A stretch of DNA of 64,000 nt from Amorphoplanes friuliensis DSM 7358 (lineage in GTDB: Bacteria; Actinomycetota; Actinomycetes; Mycobacteriales; Micromonosporaceae), in assembly GCF_000494755.1 (NCBI RefSeq), contig NC_022657.1, positions 6,114,001 to 6,178,000 on the forward strand. Reading direction: 5' to 3'. This document shows positions 739 to 8,559 of this stretch, piece by piece. Within the stretch, counting starts at the first letter, position 1; the number at the start of each line of letters is the position of its first letter. The position numbers were made by a program, and so were the translations under genes. The notes below the pieces were generated by a model. The model was given only the letters and a program-made list of their open reading frames with translations. It did no database searches and had not been told where the DNA came from.

Positions 739-1698
739 ATGAGATATCGGCTCACCGCCGCAGCGGCGATCCTGGCTCTGAGCATCGCCGGTTGTGGCGG
801 GGCGACCTCCGATGCCGGCACCGACGACAAACCCGCCGCCGGATCCAAGGGCACCGTCAAACTCGCCATCAACCCCTGGGTCGGCTACGAAGCCAACGCC
901 GCCGTCCTCGGATACCTCCTGGAACACGAACTCGGCTACACCGTCGACAAGAAGAACCTCAAAGAGGAAATCGCCTGGCAAGGCTTCGAAACCGGTGAAG
1001 TCGACGCCATCGTCGAGAACTGGGGCCACGACGACCTCAAGAAGACCTACATCACCGACAAAAAAACCGCCGTCGACCTCGGCCCCACCGGCAACAAAGG
1101 CGTCATCGGCTGGTACGTCCCCCAGTGGATGGCCGACAAGTACCCCGACATCACCGACGGCAAGAACCTCAACAAGTACGCCGACCTCTTCAAAACCTCC
1201 GAATCCAAAGGCAAAGGCCAGCTCCTCGACGGCGACCCCTCCTTCGTCACCAACGACAAAGCCCTGGTCGCCAACCTCAAACTGAACTACGAAGTCGTCT
1301 TCTCCGGCAGCGAGGCCGCCATCATCAAGGCCGCCCAGCAAGCCACCGCCCAGAAAAAACCCCTGCTGTTCTACTTCTACGAACCGCAGTGGCTCTTCGC
1401 CAAAGAGAAGTACGCCCGCGTGAAACTCCCCGCGTACACCGCCGGCTGCGACGCCGACCCCAAGAAGGTCGCCTGCGACTACCCCGACTACATCCTGGAC
1501 AAGATCGCGTCGAAGAAGTTCGCCGACACCAACAGCCCCGCGTACCAGCTCATCAAGAACTTCACCTGGACCAACGACGACCAGAACCTCGTCTCGGACT
1601 ACATCACCAACCAGGGCATGACCGCCGAAGCCGCCGGCGAGAAATGGGCCAAGGAACACGAAGCCACCTGGAAGCCGTGGATCCCGGCCAAGAGCTGA
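739..1698 (+). CDS. Glycine-betaine/quaternary-amine-type ABC substrate-binding lipoprotein (paralog 1)
   Basis: This 319-residue lipoprotein has a signal peptide ending in a lipobox, LSIAGC, with Cys19 as the lipidation site. The mature part is an OpuAC-type periplasmic binding domain with conserved aromatic segments NPWVGYEAN, ENWGHDDLKKTY and GWYVPQWM, which in the family form the cage around quaternary ammonium ligands. The ATG at 739 was chosen over longer in-frame readings because it gives the signal peptide and has GCGAGGGA upstream. No permease or ATPase gene is nearby; the next operon is a conservon. It is homologous along its whole length to the protein at 6099. Codon choice is odd: AAA, GAA and CAA are used far more than in neighbours. 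The ligand is inferred only from family. Confidence 0.88.
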   Translation: MRYRLTAAAAILALSIAGCGGATSDAGTDDKPAAGSKGTVKLAINPWVGYEANAAVLGYLLEHELGYTVDKKNLKEEIAWQGFETGEVDAIVENWGHDDLKKTYITDKKTAVDLGPTGNKGVIGWYVPQWMADKYPDITDGKNLNKYADLFKTSESKGKGQLLDGDPSFVTNDKALVANLKLNYEVVFSGSEAAIIKAAQQATAQKKPLLFYFYEPQWLFAKEKYARVKLPAYTAGCDADPKKVACDYPDYILDKIASKKFADTNSPAYQLIKNFTWTNDDQNLVSDYITNQGMTAEAAGEKWAKEHEATWKPWIPAKS

Positions 1699-1709
1699 CG
1701 GATGTCACC

Positions 1710-1735
1710 GGTCGCCGCGCATCCGCGCGGCGACC
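1710..1735 (+). terminator. Hairpin after the first binding-protein gene
   Basis: An 11-bp perfect stem (1710-1720 with 1725-1735) encloses the four-base loop ATCC and starts 12 bases after the stop codon. There is no U-tract, which is common for actinobacterial terminators. It suggests the binding-protein transcript mostly ends before the conservon. Confidence 0.5.
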
Positions 1736-2115
1736 ACCGTCCCCGGCGCCTTTGCCTCCGGCGCAGTGGACGAATTTCGGATTTGCGCCGGGTACGACAT
1801 CTGCTCGCAATCTTGCGGCGACACGATGATCCCGATCATCGATCGACTCACCTGGTGTCCGCCGACAAAACCTGACAGTTCGCCTGCTTCCCGGCCGGAC
1901 TGAGTAACTTTCGCGTTCATTAGTAGTACATCGTGGACTACCGGTCGGCTCATCGCTATGGTCCGGGATGCCACGGCAAGGCCAAGCCGTCCCCAAGGCC
2001 TAAGGAGAGTTTGCGTGCCCGCACGGAGTCGTCCGGTCGCAGGCCCGATCACGATCGGTGTCCGGCCCGGACCCGGCACCACCGCCTGCCGCACCACTCC
2101 GGAGGCGGTTCACCC
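1736..2115. other. Intergenic region upstream of the conservon
   Basis: About 380 bases contain no credible gene. A relatively AT-rich stretch at 1900-1935 (ttcattagtagtacatcg) may contain the cvn promoter, but no clear -35/-10 pair was recognised. The upstream open extension of the kinase frame to 1933 is Pro/Arg/His-rich without domain character and is treated as non-coding. Confidence 0.4.
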
Positions 2116-4584
2116 GTGAGAATCCCGCGTCCCCGGCAAGCCCACCACGACACCGACCCGACCGCCGCGACGAGCGAGGCCGGTCCCCCGGCCGGCGCAC
2201 CCGCGGCCCGCAGCACCGGCGGCACCATCCGCCGCCGTGTCGTCCGCACCCTGACTCTCCCCGTCGCCGCCGTGCTCGTCCTGCTCGGCGTCATCACGGT
2301 GATCGAGGTCGACAACTACCGCAACGCGGCCGCGTCCGCCCGTGCCGTGACCCTCGTGCTGGCGGTCCAGGACCTGGTCCAGGAGCTGCAGACCGAGCGT
2401 GGCCTGACCGCCGGTCTGCTCGGCGGCAACGTCGGCTTCAAGGCCGAGCTCGGCCCGGCCCGTAAGCGTGTCGACGACCAGCGCACCAAGGTCGAGGAGC
2501 TGATCGCCCCCGGCGGCACCGCGCAGGACCGCGTGGCCACCGCTGTCGCCCAGCTCGACGGTCTGGCCGGTGTCCGCGCCGGCACCGACGCCGGTGCCGC
2601 CGACCGAGCACCCACCTTCACCTTCTACACCGGTCGCATCGCCGAGCTGAGCAATGTCGACTACGGCCTGGACAGCTCGGCCGACCCGGCCCTGCGCCGC
2701 GGTGTCTCGGCCCTCGGCGCGCTCGGCGACGCCAAGGAGAGCACGGCCCAGGAGCGCGCGTTCCTCAACGGTGTCTTCTCCGCCAGCGGCTTCAACCGCG
2801 GCGAGTTCCTCCAGTTCGTGACCATGCGCTCGGCCAAGGACGCCGCCCTGGCCGAGTTCACCCGGTACGCCACGGACACGCAGCTCGAGGCCCGTGACTA
2901 CGTGCTGGGCACCGGTGCCGCGCAGACCGCCGCCTACTTCGAGCAGGTCGCGCTGAACGCCGGCGACGGCCGCAACCTCCAGGTCAACCCGCAGTCCTGG
3001 TGGTCCTCGCAGACCACGGTCCTGGACGACATGCGGCAGTTGCAGCAGCACGTCGGTTCGGTCATCCGGGCCCGCGCGGCGACCCTGCAGGACCAGGCCA
3101 CCACCCGCATGGGCCTGCTCATCGGTGCCGTGATCCTGTGCTTCGCCGGCTCGGTCTACCTGGCCGCCGTGGCGTCCCGCTCGATCGCCCGGCCCCTGGC
3201 GACCCTGGCCGACGAGGCCAACCGCCTCGCCGGTGAGCAGCTGCCCGAGGCCGTGCGCCGGGCCACCGCCGGTGACGACGACGCACCACCGCCGACCGTC
3301 CGCATCCCGGACGGCGCCAGCGACGAGGTCCGCCTGGTCGCCGACGCCCTCGACCGGGTGCAGGCCACCGCGTACTCCCTGGCCACCGAGCAGGCGATGC
3401 TGCGGCGCAGCACGACCGAGTCGCTGGCCAACCTGGGCCGCCGCAACCAGAACCTGCTGCGGCGCCAGCTGGGCTTCATCACCAGCCTCGAACGCGAGGA
3501 GTCGGACCCGACCGGTCTGGCCAACCTGTTCGAGCTCGACCACCTCGCCACCCGCATGCGCCGCAACGCCGAGAGCCTGCTGGTCCTCGTCGGTGCGGCC
3601 AGCCCCCGCCAGTGGTCCGAGCCGCTGCCGATCGCCGACGTCATCCGCGCCGCCGTCTCGGAGGTCGAGGAATACCGGCGGGTGCAGCTGCGCCGGGTCG
3701 ACGAGGCCCTGGTCGCCGGTGCGGTCGTCAGCGGCGTCGCGCACATGCTCGCCGAGCTCGTGGAGAACGGTCTCGCCTTCTCCCCGCCGGACGCCGACGT
3801 CGAGATCCAGGGCCGCCGCATCGGCGACAACTACCTGATCGCGATCACCGACCAGGGCATCGGCATGAACCGCGCCGACCTCGAGCTGGCCAACCAGCGC
3901 CTGCGCGGCGAGGGTGACTTCATCACCGCGCCGACCCGGTTCCTCGGCCACTACGTCGTCGGCCGCCTGGCCACCGACATGGACATCGACGTGCAGCTGG
4001 CACCCTCGCCGGTGACCGGCGTGACCGCCCGCATCGTGCTGCCGCCGTCGATCCTCGCCGGCCCGCAGTCGGTCGGCGCCCCGCAGGCGGCCCCGCAGCC
4101 GCAGCGCCTGGCACCCCCGGAGCCCGCTCCCGAGCCCGTCCGCGCCCGGGAGCGCCCGCGGGCACTGGAGTCGTCCGACCCGGCGATCACCCAGGTGATC
4201 CACCTGCCGGGCGCCGAGCCGCCGGCCACCGACAGCCGCATCCGGCCGACGACCATCGAGTACGTCACCGCGGCAGGCAGCCCCGCGGTCCGGGCGGACC
4301 ACACCGAGCAGCCGGCGTCCGCGCCGACGCTGGGAATGGACATGTACACGTTCGCCCCGCCACCCGACGACGCCGACCGTACGCCGAACGGCCTGCGCAA
4401 ACGCAACCCCCGTACCCGGAAAGCGGCGAACTCCGGTGCCGCGGCGGGCGCAGGTGCGGCCCCCACCCGCACCGCCGAGCGCCCGGCGCCGGTCGCCGAC
4501 TCACCGGAGGAGGTACGTGCCCGGTTGACCGCCTTCCGCAGCGGCGTCCAGCGGGGCAGCACCGACTCGACCGACCGCCCGTGA
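2116..4584 (+). CDS. cvnA: Conservon sensor kinase-like protein CvnA with nitrate/nitrite-sensing (NIT) domain
   Basis: This 822-residue membrane protein starts at GTG 2116 with CCGGAGGCGG upstream. The first membrane helix is at about residues 45-64, an extracytoplasmic all-alpha NIT-type domain runs to about 330, and a second helix lies at 332-352. A HAMP-like linker, a dimerisation segment (LGRRNQNLLRRQL ... ELDHLATRMRRNAE) and a GHKL ATPase domain (N box ELVENGLAFSPP, G box DQGIGM) follow. The C-terminal ~230 residues are a low-complexity Pro/Ala tail. In Streptomyces conservons the CvnA protein works with the roadblock, DUF742 and GTPase partners, all of which follow here. Kinase activity in this family is uncertain. 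The flanking binding lipoproteins may present a ligand to the extracellular domain, which is inference. Confidence 0.88.
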   Translation: MRIPRPRQAHHDTDPTAATSEAGPPAGAPAARSTGGTIRRRVVRTLTLPVAAVLVLLGVITVIEVDNYRNAAASARAVTLVLAVQDLVQELQTERGLTAGLLGGNVGFKAELGPARKRVDDQRTKVEELIAPGGTAQDRVATAVAQLDGLAGVRAGTDAGAADRAPTFTFYTGRIAELSNVDYGLDSSADPALRRGVSALGALGDAKESTAQERAFLNGVFSASGFNRGEFLQFVTMRSAKDAALAEFTRYATDTQLEARDYVLGTGAAQTAAYFEQVALNAGDGRNLQVNPQSWWSSQTTVLDDMRQLQQHVGSVIRARAATLQDQATTRMGLLIGAVILCFAGSVYLAAVASRSIARPLATLADEANRLAGEQLPEAVRRATAGDDDAPPPTVRIPDGASDEVRLVADALDRVQATAYSLATEQAMLRRSTTESLANLGRRNQNLLRRQLGFITSLEREESDPTGLANLFELDHLATRMRRNAESLLVLVGAASPRQWSEPLPIADVIRAAVSEVEEYRRVQLRRVDEALVAGAVVSGVAHMLAELVENGLAFSPPDADVEIQGRRIGDNYLIAITDQGIGMNRADLELANQRLRGEGDFITAPTRFLGHYVVGRLATDMDIDVQLAPSPVTGVTARIVLPPSILAGPQSVGAPQAAPQPQRLAPPEPAPEPVRARERPRALESSDPAITQVIHLPGAEPPATDSRIRPTTIEYVTAAGSPAVRADHTEQPASAPTLGMDMYTFAPPPDDADRTPNGLRKRNPRTRKAANSGAAAGAGAAPTRTAERPAPVADSPEEVRARLTAFRSGVQRGSTDSTDRP

Positions 4585-4614
4585 CCGCCCCCCACCCCGC
4601 AACGAGGTCGAACC

Positions 4615-5040
4615 ATGAGCGTTGACACGTCTGCCGACCGGCACCAGTTCAACTGGTTGCTGGGCAACTTCGTCCACCAGACCGACGGTGTCCGCGACGC
4701 GGTCGCGGTGTCGTCCGACGGCCTGCTCATCGCGAGTTCGGACGGCCTGAACCGCGCCGAGGCCGACCACCTGGCCGCGATCGTCTCCAGCCTGGCCAGT
4801 GTCGCCCGCAGCGCGTCGCGGCGCTACGACTTCGACGGCCTCAAGCTCATCATGATCGAGATGCGGCGCGGCTTCCTGCTGGTGTCGGTCATCGCCGGGG
4901 GCAGCTGCCTCGGGGTGGTCGCCGGCGGGGACAGCGACGTGGGCCTGGTGGGGTACGAGATCTCGATGCTGGCCGACCGGTTCGGCGCCCTGCTCACCCC
5001 GGCGCTGATATCCGAGTCCCGCCAGTACCTCCCGCGATGA
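4615..5040 (+). CDS. cvnB: Roadblock/LC7-domain protein CvnB
   Basis: The 141-residue protein is a single roadblock/LC7 domain, with the typical opening FNWLLGNFVHQTDGVRDAVAVSSDGLLIASS and a later LASVARSASRRYDFD segment. In conservons and in MglB-type systems this fold controls a partner small GTPase; that partner would be the protein at 5458. The gene starts 30 bases after cvnA and its stop overlaps the cvnC start (ATGA). It has no signal peptide and is cytoplasmic. Confidence 0.92.
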   Translation: MSVDTSADRHQFNWLLGNFVHQTDGVRDAVAVSSDGLLIASSDGLNRAEADHLAAIVSSLASVARSASRRYDFDGLKLIMIEMRRGFLLVSVIAGGSCLGVVAGGDSDVGLVGYEISMLADRFGALLTPALISESRQYLPR

Positions 5041-5474
5041 GCCATCGGGGGGAGTGGGGCCCGGACCCCCGCATGATCCCGTACACCGCCGAGCAGCCGC
5101 CGCCCGCGTGGACGCCACCCGCGCCGGGTCCTCGTGCTCCAGAGCCCGAGGACGACCTCGTGGTGCGCCCGTTCATGCTCACCGGCGGGCGGACCCGTCC
5201 GCTGCACGACGGGCTGCGCATCGAGACGCTGCTGCACGCCTCGCCCGCGGCGCTGTCGGCACCGTTGCGTTTCGAGTCGCGGCGCATCGTCGAGCTGTGC
5301 CAGGCGCCGATGTCCATCGCGGACCTCGCCGTGGCGCTGAAGGTGCCGCTCGGTGTCATCCGGGTGATCGTCGCCGACCTGGTCACCGACGGTTATCTGC
5401 GCATCGAGGAGCAGCTCGGCGAGCTGCCCATCGCATTGATCGAAAGGATCAGGGATCGTGTACGGGCGCTTTAG
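5037..5474 (+). CDS. cvnC: DUF742-family protein CvnC
   Basis: This 145-residue protein has a proline-rich N-terminus, then the DUF742 core (RPFMLTGGRTRP, FESRRIVELC, SIADLAVALKVPLGVIRVIV, LVTDGYLRI). The core looks like a winged-helix-like fold. DUF742 proteins are constant members of conservons; their biochemical role is not established. The start overlaps cvnB by four bases and the end overlaps cvnD by 17 bases, which implies translational coupling. Confidence 0.9.
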   Translation: MSHRGEWGPDPRMIPYTAEQPPPAWTPPAPGPRAPEPEDDLVVRPFMLTGGRTRPLHDGLRIETLLHASPAALSAPLRFESRRIVELCQAPMSIADLAVALKVPLGVIRVIVADLVTDGYLRIEEQLGELPIALIERIRDRVRAL

Positions 5475-6072
5475 TGAACCGGCGCCGACGCCGGCGCCGC
5501 TGCCGCCGGTGGCGGTCAAGATCGTGATCAGTGGTGGTTTCGGCGTGGGCAAGACGACCTTCGTAGGCGCGATCTCGGAGATCGAGCCGCTGGTCACCGA
5601 GGCCGAGATGACCGAGCGGTCGATCGGCATCGACGACACCTCGGCGGTGTCGGCCAAGACGACCACGACCGTGGCGCTCGACTTCGGCCGCATCACCCTC
5701 GACGACGCGCTGCTGCTGTACCTGTTCGGCACCCCCGGCCAGGACCGGTTCGCGTTCCTCTGGGACGACCTGGTCGACGGTGCGCTCGGCGCCGTGGTGC
5801 TGCTCGACGTGCGCCGCATCGAGGACTGCTTCCCCGCGATCGACTATTTCGAGGAACATGAGATCCCGTTCCTGATCGGGGTCAACACCTTCGACCGGTC
5901 CCAGCGCTTCGACCTCGAGGAGGTCCGCGACGCGCTGGGCATCGGGCCGGACGTGCCCATCCTGGACTGCGACGCCCGGCACCGTGAGTCGGTCAAGAAC
6001 GTCCTGGTCGCCCTGACCGAGGAGGTTCTCACCAAGCGGCTGAGCCGCGAACGGCCGGTGCCGACGTGGTAG
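5458..6072 (+). CDS. cvnD: Conservon small GTP-binding protein CvnD
   Basis: This 204-residue GTPase begins at GTG 5458 with AAAGGATCAGGG in front. It has a P-loop GGFGVGKTT near residues 26-34, a switch region ending in FGTPGQDRF (DxxG replaced by TPGQ, usual for this family) and an NTFD motif as the NKxD equivalent. It is the last member of the four-gene conservon and probably acts as the switch regulated by the roadblock protein. The start lies within cvnC. Confidence 0.9.
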   Translation: MYGRFSEPAPTPAPLPPVAVKIVISGGFGVGKTTFVGAISEIEPLVTEAEMTERSIGIDDTSAVSAKTTTTVALDFGRITLDDALLLYLFGTPGQDRFAFLWDDLVDGALGAVVLLDVRRIEDCFPAIDYFEEHEIPFLIGVNTFDRSQRFDLEEVRDALGIGPDVPILDCDARHRESVKNVLVALTEEVLTKRLSRERPVPTW

Positions 6073-6098
6073 CCGCCTCCCCACAGAAACGGACGACG

Positions 6099-7052
6099 AT
6101 GCTGAGAACGCGCCGGCTGGCGGCCCTCCTGAGCGTGCTGGCCCTCGCTGCCTGCGGTGACTCGGCGACCGCGATCGTCGCGCCGCCGGGGGTCGAGCGC
6201 ACGCCCTGCGGCAACGTCTCGATCGCCGTGAACCCCTGGGTCGGTTACGAGGCCAACGTGGCCGTGGTCAGCTATCTGCTCAAGCAGGAGCTGGGCTGCA
6301 CGGTGGCCGAGAAGGACCTCACCGAGGACGAGTCGTGGAAGGGCCTGGCCAGCGGCGAGGTCGACGCCATCCTGGAGAACTGGGGCCACGACGACCTCAA
6401 GAAGACCTACATCGACGACAAGAAGGTCGCCGTCGAGCAGGGCCTGACCGGCAACAAGGGTGTCATCGGCTGGTACGTGCCGCCGTGGATGGCCAAGGAA
6501 TACCCGAACATCACCAAGTGGAAGAACCTCAACGAGTTCGCCGACCGCTTCAAGACGGCGAAGTCCGACGGCAAGGGCCAGCTGCTGGGTGGCGACCCGT
6601 CGTTCGTCACCAACGACGCCGCCCTGATCAAGAACCTCAAACTCAACTACAGCGTCGTGTACGCCGGCAGCGAGGACGCGCTCATCGCCGCGTTCCGCAA
6701 GGCCGAGAAGGACAAGAAGCCGCTGATCGGGTACTTCTACACGCCGCAGTGGCTGCTGTCGGAGATTGATCTGGTGCACATCCCGCTGCCGATCTACAAA
6801 CCCGGCTGCGACGCCGACCCGGACACCGTGGCCTGCGACTACCAGCCGTACGACCTCGACAAGATCGCGCGGAAGGCGTTCGTCGACTCGGGCAGCCCGG
6901 CGGCCGACCTGATCAAGAACTTCCGCTGGACCAACGACGACCAGAACGCCGTGGCCCGCGACATCACCGTCAAGAAGCTGTCCCGCGACGACGCCGCGAA
7001 ACGCTGGCTGGACTCGCACCGCTCGACCTGGCAGGCCTGGCTCCCCCGCTGA
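6099..7052 (+). CDS. Glycine-betaine-type ABC substrate-binding lipoprotein (paralog 2)
   Basis: This 317-residue lipoprotein lies 26 bases downstream of cvnD on the same strand, so it is probably co-transcribed with the conservon. The ATG at 6099 gives a clean signal peptide with lipobox LALAAC and lipidated Cys19; a GTG at 6066 overlapping cvnD is an alternative. The mature domain shares with the protein at 739 the segments NPWVGYEAN, ENWGHDDLKKTYI, GDPSFVTND, PGCDADP and WTNDDQN, so the two are clear paralogs. Codon use here (AAG, GAG) is typical of the window, unlike paralog 1. No transporter membrane component is present, which suggests a sensory role. Confidence 0.88.
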   Translation: MLRTRRLAALLSVLALAACGDSATAIVAPPGVERTPCGNVSIAVNPWVGYEANVAVVSYLLKQELGCTVAEKDLTEDESWKGLASGEVDAILENWGHDDLKKTYIDDKKVAVEQGLTGNKGVIGWYVPPWMAKEYPNITKWKNLNEFADRFKTAKSDGKGQLLGGDPSFVTNDAALIKNLKLNYSVVYAGSEDALIAAFRKAEKDKKPLIGYFYTPQWLLSEIDLVHIPLPIYKPGCDADPDTVACDYQPYDLDKIARKAFVDSGSPAADLIKNFRWTNDDQNAVARDITVKKLSRDDAAKRWLDSHRSTWQAWLPR

Positions 7053-7056
7053 CGAG

Positions 7057-8559
7057 CTACCCGGGCCGGCTCACCACGAGCCGGTCCGCGGTGGTCAGCT
7101 CCTCGGTGAAGTGCCGCACCGCGCTGCCCGGGGCGGCCTTGGCGGCGTACATCGCGATGTCCGCCCGGCGCAGCAGCTCACCCGCGTCGGCGCCGCTGTG
7201 GCCGGCGGCGAGACCGATGCTGGCACCTATCGGCACCTCGGCGTCGCCGAGAAGCACCGGCTCGGCGAGTGCGTCGAGCATCCGCCGCGCGACGTCCTCG
7301 GCCACCTCGGCCCCGGCGTCCCCCATCACGACGACGAACTCGTCACCGCCGAGCCGCGCCACGGTGTCACCCTCGCGGACACACGCACCCAGCCGCCGCG
7401 CCACCACGATCAGCAACCGGTCGCCGGCGTCGTGCCCGAGCGTGTCGTTGACCTGCTTGAACCCGTCGAGGTCGAGCAGCGCCACCACGACGGGCGCGGT
7501 CGACGGCGAGGCCAGCGCGGCCTCCAGACGCCGGTGGAACAGCACCCGGTTGGGCAGCTGCGTGAGCGCGTCGTGGGTGGCGCTGTGGTCCAGGCGCCGC
7601 ACCAGCTCCCCGTTGTCGATCAGCGCGGTCACCTGCCGCAGCGCCACCAGAGCGGTCAGGACCACGGCCGCCAGCACGACAACCACGTCGTCGGCCAGAC
7701 CGGCATCGAAGGCGACCTGGACCAGCAGCACGTCCACGGCCGCCACTGCGACGTACGGGAAAAGGCTGAACGGCCGCCGGTCGCGGTCGGCGCCGGGCTG
7801 AGAACTGCCCCGCCGCTGCCTCTCCGCGGCGAGCACGGCCACGAAGAAGCAGGCCGGATTGCCGACCATGGTGGCGAACAGGTGCGGGAACGACTCCTGC
7901 AGGTACGGCTGCAGCGCGGGAGCCAGCGTGCCGACCAGCACCGCCGTGGCGAGCAGCCGTAACGAGCCTCTGTCCACGTACCGGTGGCCGGAAAGAACGA
8001 CCTTGACCACCGAGAAGACGGCGACCATCCCGGTGACCGTGAGGATCAGGGAGCCGATCAGACCGAAACCCTCGGCACCGACCAGGTGACGCGTCTGGAA
8101 GTGCCAGAGGAAAACGGCGGCGGCGAGCATGACGGTGCCGGCGTCGAGAACGACCCGCAGCAGCGCACCGGGCTGCCGGTCACCGAGTGGCAGCCGCAGG
8201 AGCGCGTAGACGATGAACAGCTGAGCGAGCGCAGCCCCGGCGATCAGCACGGGAGTGACGTGCGCTCCCCCGCTGTCCGGATTGCGCCAGACGTCGTAGG
8301 CCTGCGCGGCCAGCGCCACGGAAGCCGACCCGGCGGCGATGGAGAGCCTCCGCCAGAAGAGCCGCGTCGGCAGCGGCAGCCCTTCGACCCGCGAGGTCCG
8401 CAGCAGCGCGGCGGTGAGCACCAGACCCGCGGCCAGGGTGGGCAGCCACAACAGCAACGAGGGCCCGACCGGATGCACAGCGTTGACCGCGAACCAGAGC
8501 AGCGCGGAGCCGGCTACCGCACCGGAGATCCGGCCCAGGCTTGCCCGCTCATCGGCCAC
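7057..8559 (-). CDS. Membrane diguanylate cyclase (GGDEF)
   Basis: This 500-residue protein starts at GTG 8559. The first ~300 residues form about eight to nine hydrophobic helices without a recognised sensor signature. A C-terminal GGDEF domain follows, with ATHDALTQLPNR, LLDLDGFKQVNDTLGH and the intact active-site motif GGDEF at 404-408. An RxxD inhibitory site (REGD, 395-398) lies five residues before the motif, so product inhibition is likely. The family makes c-di-GMP from two GTP. The start overlaps the end of the peptidase gene by 11 bases, which places it as the last gene of the minus-strand GTPase operon. Confidence 0.92.
   Translation of the reverse strand: MADERASLGRISGAVAGSALLWFAVNAVHPVGPSLLLWLPTLAAGLVLTAALLRTSRVEGLPLPTRLFWRRLSIAAGSASVALAAQAYDVWRNPDSGGAHVTPVLIAGAALAQLFIVYALLRLPLGDRQPGALLRVVLDAGTVMLAAAVFLWHFQTRHLVGAEGFGLIGSLILTVTGMVAVFSVVKVVLSGHRYVDRGSLRLLATAVLVGTLAPALQPYLQESFPHLFATMVGNPACFFVAVLAAERQRRGSSQPGADRDRRPFSLFPYVAVAAVDVLLVQVAFDAGLADDVVVVLAAVVLTALVALRQVTALIDNGELVRRLDHSATHDALTQLPNRVLFHRRLEAALASPSTAPVVVALLDLDGFKQVNDTLGHDAGDRLLIVVARRLGACVREGDTVARLGGDEFVVVMGDAGAEVAEDVARRMLDALAEPVLLGDAEVPIGASIGLAAGHSGADAGELLRRADIAMYAAKAAPGSAVRHFTEELTTADRLVVSRPG
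7063..7087. terminator. Possible bidirectional terminator between convergent genes
   Basis: CCGGCTC (7066-7072) and GAGCCGG (7078-7084) form a perfect 7-bp stem with loop ACCAC, extendable by three pairs including a G-U. It sits 10 bases after the stop of the binding protein and inside the last codons of the convergent GGDEF gene. Confidence 0.35.

Follow-up and report, generated by a model that had tools for sequence, protein, structure and literature searches.

Why does a conservon lie between two substrate-binding lipoproteins of a kind that usually serves importers, with no importer beside them? The question is raised by a stretch of 64,000 nucleotides of the Amorphoplanes friuliensis DSM 7358 genome (the window; positions 6,114,001-6,178,000 of a 9.38 Mb single-contig genome), in which genes for two substrate-binding proteins (SBPs) enclose a conservon on the + strand in the order SBP1, cvnA, cvnB, cvnC, cvnD, SBP2, with cvnABCD ending at 6072 and no ATPase or permease gene adjoining the row. 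A sequence-only reading of the window had proposed that both lipoproteins present osmolyte or choline-like ligands to the conservon. Our analysis partly supports this co-receptor idea, which stands for SBP2 and fails for SBP1, and suggests that in Actinoplanes-like bacteria and some of their relatives the Ras-like switch of a conservon can sense betaine- or choline-like molecules outside the cell. The best-supported explanation, which we hold with moderate confidence, is that SBP2 is a transporter-derived co-receptor that presents such a ligand to CvnA.

Results

SBP2 (6099..7052, + strand), the proposed dedicated co-receptor, is an OpuAC-type lipoprotein (PF04069, 137.8 bits). Its ATG at 6099 stands 26 bases past the cvnD stop, the spacing that the sequence-only reading had given, and a GTG at 6066, in frame, offers an alternative start that overlaps the end of cvnD; such an overlapping start is possible in 37 of 49 loci, a count in which some genomes are represented twice. 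Among 60 relatives, cvnD immediately precedes the SBP2 orthologue in every one of 20 loci (L006-L025), and a scan of GTDB genomes, from which the best 80 of 401 relatives were kept and mapped, also found the pair in Pseudosporangium, Mangrovihabitans, Micromonospora, Salinispora, Kineosporia and unnamed bins. In all, 48 distinct sequences, most of them from Micromonosporaceae and Kineosporiaceae, have SBP2 directly after cvnD. In a tree of SBPs, reduced from 124 to 108 rows by removal of identical or contained sequences, 44 of the 45 rows that lie directly after cvnD form one clade (100/99), which spans two families and contains no transporter-linked SBP. The outlying row, from a Dactylosporangium bin (L095), groups with the SBPs of a Planosporangium (L092; cvnABCD-OpuAB-SBP) and a Rugosimonospora (L108; cvnABCD, then OpuAA-OpuAB-SBP), and these three may represent a separate capture of an SBP. 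In the Planosporangium, P. mesophilum, no OpuAA was mapped between cvnABCD and OpuAB-SBP, and a full set lies elsewhere (L130).

Most loci in which a conservon carries SBP2 (cvn-SBP2 loci) had been found via SBP2 itself, and hence a second survey was started from the NIT domain of CvnA, covering 38 places in the window genome and the 60 relatives. The sequence-only reading had suggested looking for adjacent OpuAC genes at NIT conservons, and they are there where the NIT domain is close: SBP2 follows in 20 of 20 cases with identities of 60% and above (one of them apparently divided between two contigs), in one of three at 54-55%, and in none of the 14 examined out of 15 at 50% or less. Beside 16 paralogous NIT conservons, no SBP2 was found. 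A lipobox-like motif, sought with a lenient pattern, is present in 49 of 49 loci, and the motif, four cysteines and the aromatic cage described below are retained throughout the cvnD-linked SBP2 proteins; two loci were omitted from one alignment, L034 for an internal stop and L031 by choice. The cvnD-SBP2 arrangement is real and conserved, and SBP2 has the genetic tie to a membrane sensor that marks an SBP-dependent receptor, with locus L046 as the outlier among the NIT domains. Genes of other kinds come after some of the remaining NIT conservons, namely one for a zinc-ribbon-like protein that has a membrane helix (L055, L056) and one for a small lipoprotein (L059), possibly further accessory types; neither the L059 lipoprotein nor the L055 protein has an NCBIfam match.

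The pocket of SBP2 bears on what it might bind. With pocket positions set by alignment to TmoX and DmpX (PMC8918994; PMC10030565), the aromatic box of SBP2 comprises two tryptophans, W58 and W106, a third member at F/Y180 and a fourth at Y225, with Y223 adjacent. W58, W106, Y223 and Y225 occur in 48 of 48 conservon-linked SBPs, in which position 180 is occupied by F (34 sequences) or Y (14), and the same cage residues occur in 36 of 37 transporter-linked SBPs, the last being gapped. The SBP2 model (predicted local distance difference test score, pLDDT, 90.6) is nearest to 4xz6 (Z 28.6), within a nearest set of 4xz6, 7yle and lactococcal OpuA/OpuAC (Z 26.7-28.6); SBP2 thus has the OpuAC domain, the type II SBP fold and the aromatic cage of an OpuAC/ProX-type protein. 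These residues, together with the neighbouring genes, indicate that the SBP2 ligand is likely a trimethylammonium-type compound, which agrees with the quaternary-amine-type ligand of the sequence-only reading, and the linked genes point to glycine betaine or choline as the most likely candidates. Trimethylamine N-oxide and dimethylsulfoniopropionate are not favoured, though no solved structures are nearer than TmoX and DmpX: where those proteins have a glutamate that forms hydrogen bonds, all 48 conservon-linked SBPs have I, V or L, and 36 of 37 transporter-linked ones have I, with one gap. At the pocket edge, V181 is Glu in five of the 48 conservon-linked SBPs, L105, L113 and L164 included, all from Micromonospora genomes that have no fused transporter, and ligand preference may be shifted in these variants.

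The four genes before SBP2 satisfy the definition of a conservon, with HATPase_c, Roadblock, DUF742 and small GTPase genes in cvnABCD order. The sensor kinase-like cvnA (2116..4584, + strand) has its longest open reading frame at 1933-4584, and GTG 2116 is a likelier start than GTG 1933 by comparison with L074; its product scores 162.5 bits for NIT, 39 bits for HATPase_c and, under the cut-off, 18 bits for HAMP. The NIT sensor domain (2311..3111, + strand; model pLDDT 91.3) lies between the two membrane helices, and the families of the row are those that the sequence-only reading had given. There follow, all on the + strand, cvnB (4615..5040; Roadblock/LC7, PF03259, 65.1 bits), cvnC (5037..5474; DUF742, PF05331, 77.7 bits) and cvnD (5458..6072; Ras-like GTPase, ATP_bind_1, PF03029, 89.7 bits). 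In a tree of 60 NIT domains, from which L095 was left out as its contig begins inside cvnA, one clade (100/98) unites 41 of the 42 SBP2-linked domains with those of L092 and L108, and all 16 domains from SBP-less paralogues fall outside it. Across 41 loci, distances between SBP2 proteins correlate with distances between NIT domains beyond what the kinase half, CvnB and CvnD account for (partial r 0.36; 0.32 without Actinoplanes aureus), and the partial correlations of SBP2 with those three parts are 0.08-0.18; the permutation test for these values ignores kinship.

SBP1 is a different matter. This gene (739..1698, + strand; a longer open reading frame begins at 640) encodes an OpuAC-type lipoprotein of the transporter-type paralogue (PF04069, 142.9 bits; lipobox IAGC) that is 62% identical to SBP2 across 279 residues. 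The presence of two paralogous OpuAC lipoproteins on either side of the conservon is confirmed. The direct flanking once claimed for both holds for SBP2 and not for SBP1, which is separated from cvnA by 234 bases to GTG 1933, or 417 to GTG 2116, and by a hairpin 3' of its stop (approximately 1709..1736, + strand), a candidate terminator; positions 1699-1755 fold at -30.2 kcal/mol (z -2.58, equalled by 3 of 200 shuffles). Because of this strong hairpin, SBP1 probably has a transcript of its own. The lack of a transporter likewise holds for the locus, where the window genes do not encode an SBP together with the ATPase and permease of a betaine/choline ABC importer, and not for the genome. An operon at 4.0 Mb encodes a GMC oxidoreductase (choline dehydrogenase family, scores under cut-offs), the OpuAA ATPase (TIGR01186, 352.6 against a cut-off of 326.6), a fused two-domain OpuAB permease (TIGR03416, 415.9 against 363), a copy of SBP1, a DAO/FAO_M/GCV_T oxidase and an amine oxidase above the NF008425 cut-off. 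This permease is the one match to fused OpuAB in the genome at E <= 1e-60, and it lies outside the window.

Window SBP1 (739-1698) and the 4.0 Mb copy (L002, 7744-8700) differ at 34 bases, of which 18 lie in the signal-peptide part, eight in 798-1686 and eight at the extreme end, where the window gene encodes three residues more; the eight differences in 798-1686 form two patches and are all synonymous, leaving the shared mature protein identical. Such a distribution resembles the outcome of recent copying or gene conversion. Among the 60 relatives, OpuAB directly precedes the SBP in eight of nine fetched loci of the SBP1 kind; in the ninth (L029) the mapped stretch shows no OpuAB, and the permease there was found in two pieces. 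The row GMC-OpuAA-OpuAB-SBP1-cvnABCD-SBP2 lies on one strand in G025 (L035, L072), G024 (L036) and Amorphoplanes nipponensis (L073), OpuAA-OpuAB is divergent from SBP1-cvnABCD-SBP2 in G008 (L037, L077), and in Winogradskya humida and W. consettensis (L074, L075) SBP1-cvnABCD-SBP2 has no adjoining OpuAA-OpuAB, as in the window, and the permease is on another contig. From this gene order we read the window arrangement as a derived state, in which SBP1 would have stayed by the conservon once OpuAA-OpuAB came to sit elsewhere, and SBP1 probably still serves the 4.0 Mb transporter. That both lipoproteins are equal ligand presenters, as the sequence-only reading had it, we reject for SBP1, whose nearest orthologues and 4.0 Mb copy sit with OpuAB.

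The conservon is repeatedly linked to genes for uptake and demethylation. Sarcosine oxidase subunit genes precede cvnA in seven loci, and in one of these (L047) the scores are 636 bits for SoxB (cut-off 529) and 1187 for SoxA (cut-off 1164). Choline is broken down through betaine, dimethylglycine and sarcosine to glycine, a route that would fit the linked transporter and sarcosine oxidase genes. No shared output regulator was found: besides cvn genes, the SBP and an antisense open reading frame, no family occurs in more than eight of the 45 cvn-SBP2 loci compared, some genomes being counted twice. Downstream of SBP2, a strong hairpin lies immediately 3' of the stop, and a GGDEF gene (7057-8559, - strand) converges on SBP2 to within five bases of its stop. 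The closest named record by SBP2 is Amorphoplanes auranticolor, at 89%.

Discussion

In the mechanism that we infer, SBP2, descended from the binding protein of a transporter, would be made as part of the conservon and anchored to the membrane by its lipid. On closing around a trimethylammonium-type ligand it would alter its contact with the CvnA NIT domain, whereupon CvnA would reset the Ras-like switch CvnD via CvnB and CvnC, the route from CvnA through CvnB and CvnC to CvnD being the one proposed for conservons (PMC13343842). The regulated genes would likely be those for uptake and demethylating breakdown of trimethylammonium-type compounds. Whether this describes a wider class, an SBP2-gated conservon in which an importer-derived lipoprotein supplies the input to a transmembrane Ras-like switch for quaternary amines, we regard as evenly balanced.

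SBP2 might instead be an extra binding protein which, like SBP1, feeds OpuAA-OpuAB in trans, the conservon regulating the importer and itself sensing something else. The fold and cage of SBP2 are those of transporter SBPs, and extra SBPs do occur in tandem with or divergent from an importer: Microbispora amethystogenes (L151) has two SBPs of the OpuAC family in tandem after OpuAB, and in Lentzea (L134, L135, L136, L142, L144) a separate SBP clade (100/100) is encoded divergently from OpuAA-OpuAB-SBP in stretches that have no conservon. Among 35 relatives of the same genus, all 19 genomes that have cvn-SBP2 carry the fused permease, as do 7 of the 16 without it (p 1.6e-4, kinship ignored), a co-occurrence that ties the conservon to the transport system and does not separate sensing from transport. 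The Micromonospora genomes decide more. In that GTDB genus (101 genomes, including a record titled Salinispora pacifica), 12 genomes have any match and nine have the SBP after cvnD; the fused permease is present in three of the nine (G060, G089, G149) and absent from six (G061, G064, G067, G068, G069, G136), for which all first-look candidates were scored; the drafts are of unreported completeness, and the assembly of G136 consists of one 6.84 Mb contig. Because six of nine cvn-SBP2 genomes have no fused transporter, SBP2 is not simply a subunit of it. Four of the six (G061, G064, G067, G068) have an OpuBC-like SBP with swapped halves near permeases of 244 amino acids, their remaining candidates being weak (at most 44.5 bits); outside this sample, M. 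pattaloongensis has cvn-SBP2 and a divergent transporter (L086, L150). The sequence-only reading had staked its proposal on the lipoproteins not being normally encoded with OpuAA/OpuAB: SBP1 orthologues are, and SBP2 orthologues, tied to cvnD rather than to OpuAB and lacking the fused transporter in most of these Micromonospora genomes, are not. Taken together, these observations make a role for SBP2 in feeding the importer unlikely.

A further account makes the NIT domain a direct sensor of nitrate or nitrite, the role proposed for NasR, with the lipoprotein carrying a second signal or none. This remains a rival because the NIT model has the NasR fold (4akk; Z 29.4, root-mean-square deviation 2.4, 256 residues aligned), which is its clear best match, and because the QER motif that holds NasR pocket residues aligns with a QER in CvnA, where the Arg is invariant in 37 of 37 rows; E175 and R176 are the residues proposed for the nitrate pocket of NasR (PMC7496416). 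In seven loci from five genomes (L043/L080, L044/L081, L079, L085, L096), a nirB gene lies about 2-8 kb from the conservon, with a NasC-like gene, scoring under the cut-off, beside it in L081, and this neighbourhood may be relevant to the NIT sensor. Yet the 99 loci searched include just these seven, which are without exception of Paractinoplanes type and have nirB on either side of the conservon, the QER Glu is not among the columns conserved in at least 90% of rows, and some NIT domains bind no nitrate (PMC13343842), so that we rate direct nitrate sensing as less probable still than the transport role. That SBP2 is a passenger, kept in the operon by history with little function there, would suit neighbouring genes that are often rearranged and an SBP1 recently copied in this genome; the cage, four cysteines and lipobox-like motif kept in a clade spanning two families make it very improbable. 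We did not use as evidence a resemblance of the NIT domain to a TorS-like dock: TorS (3o1h-3o1j) matches one helical bundle at Z 10.4-11.1 over 102-109 residues, under the caution line of about 13 that the comparison tool sets for helical bundles.

Several observations weigh against SBP2 as a co-receptor of CvnA. Besides the NasR-like features of the NIT domain, no genome of the window genus with SBP2 lacks the transporter, as would also be expected if SBP2 served transport, and two of the Micromonospora genomes without the fused permease (G069, G136) have another, single-domain choline-type permease next to its own SBP. The pairing of SBP2 with its NIT domain is not strict, because in Actinoplanes aureus (G015, L046) SBP2 adjoins a CvnA whose NIT domain groups with the SBP-less kind, a locus that we read as a possible NIT swap or operon replacement. 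The distance correlation between SBP2 and NIT is weak support for contact, because NIT tracks CvnD more strongly (partial r 0.45) and SBP2 and NIT both face outside. Finally, SBPs encoded near two Pseudomonas aeruginosa kinases failed to bind the sensor domains of those kinases (PMC11113362).

Conservons occur widely in Actinomycetota, and it is unsettled what signals the NIT-type CvnA proteins among them detect (PMC13343842); with a single lipoprotein, a single sensor domain and few candidate ligands, the present system makes this directly testable. If our explanation is true, it would supply the first concrete ligand class for such sensors and add an extracytoplasmic kind of accessory to CvnE and CvnF. 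The arrangements still found in living species, from OpuAA-OpuAB-SBP with cvnABCD to an SBP alone with cvnABCD, also show a way in which a subunit of a transporter may turn into one of a receptor.

SBPs act as co-receptors of membrane sensor kinases in TorT-TorS, LuxP-LuxQ and ChvE-VirA, which differ from the present system in their two-component or phosphorelay outputs and in their SBP families. A precedent in Actinobacteria is GlnH-GlnX-PknG of mycobacteria, in which a solute-binding lipoprotein is proposed to pass a signal through the membrane to a regulator inside the cell according to nutrient supply; that system has an amino-acid SBP, the membrane protein GlnX and a Ser/Thr kinase, and its abstract mentions neither a Ras-like GTPase nor NIT (PMC6069109). 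Conservons with CvnE or CvnF share with ours the cvnABCD core and one extra gene that perhaps supplies input, there a P450 or GAF protein beside a CvnA without sensor domain (PMC13343842), whereas the accessory in the window is an OpuAC lipoprotein with a NIT-bearing CvnA; OpuAC is its sole Pfam family, so it is neither CvnE nor CvnF. The terms "lipoprotein" and "substrate-binding" are absent from the main text of that study (PMC13343842), and a search by titles and abstract openings, covering few subscription papers, found no description of a conservon with an OpuAC lipoprotein. With the type I importers OpuA, ChoXWV, TmoXWV and DmpXWV, SBP2 has its fold and aromatic cage in common. SBP1 belongs to such a betaine/choline-type importer, and SBP2 is instead encoded with the conservon, which, with an OpuAC lipoprotein as its accessory in place of CvnE or CvnF, is a new variant.

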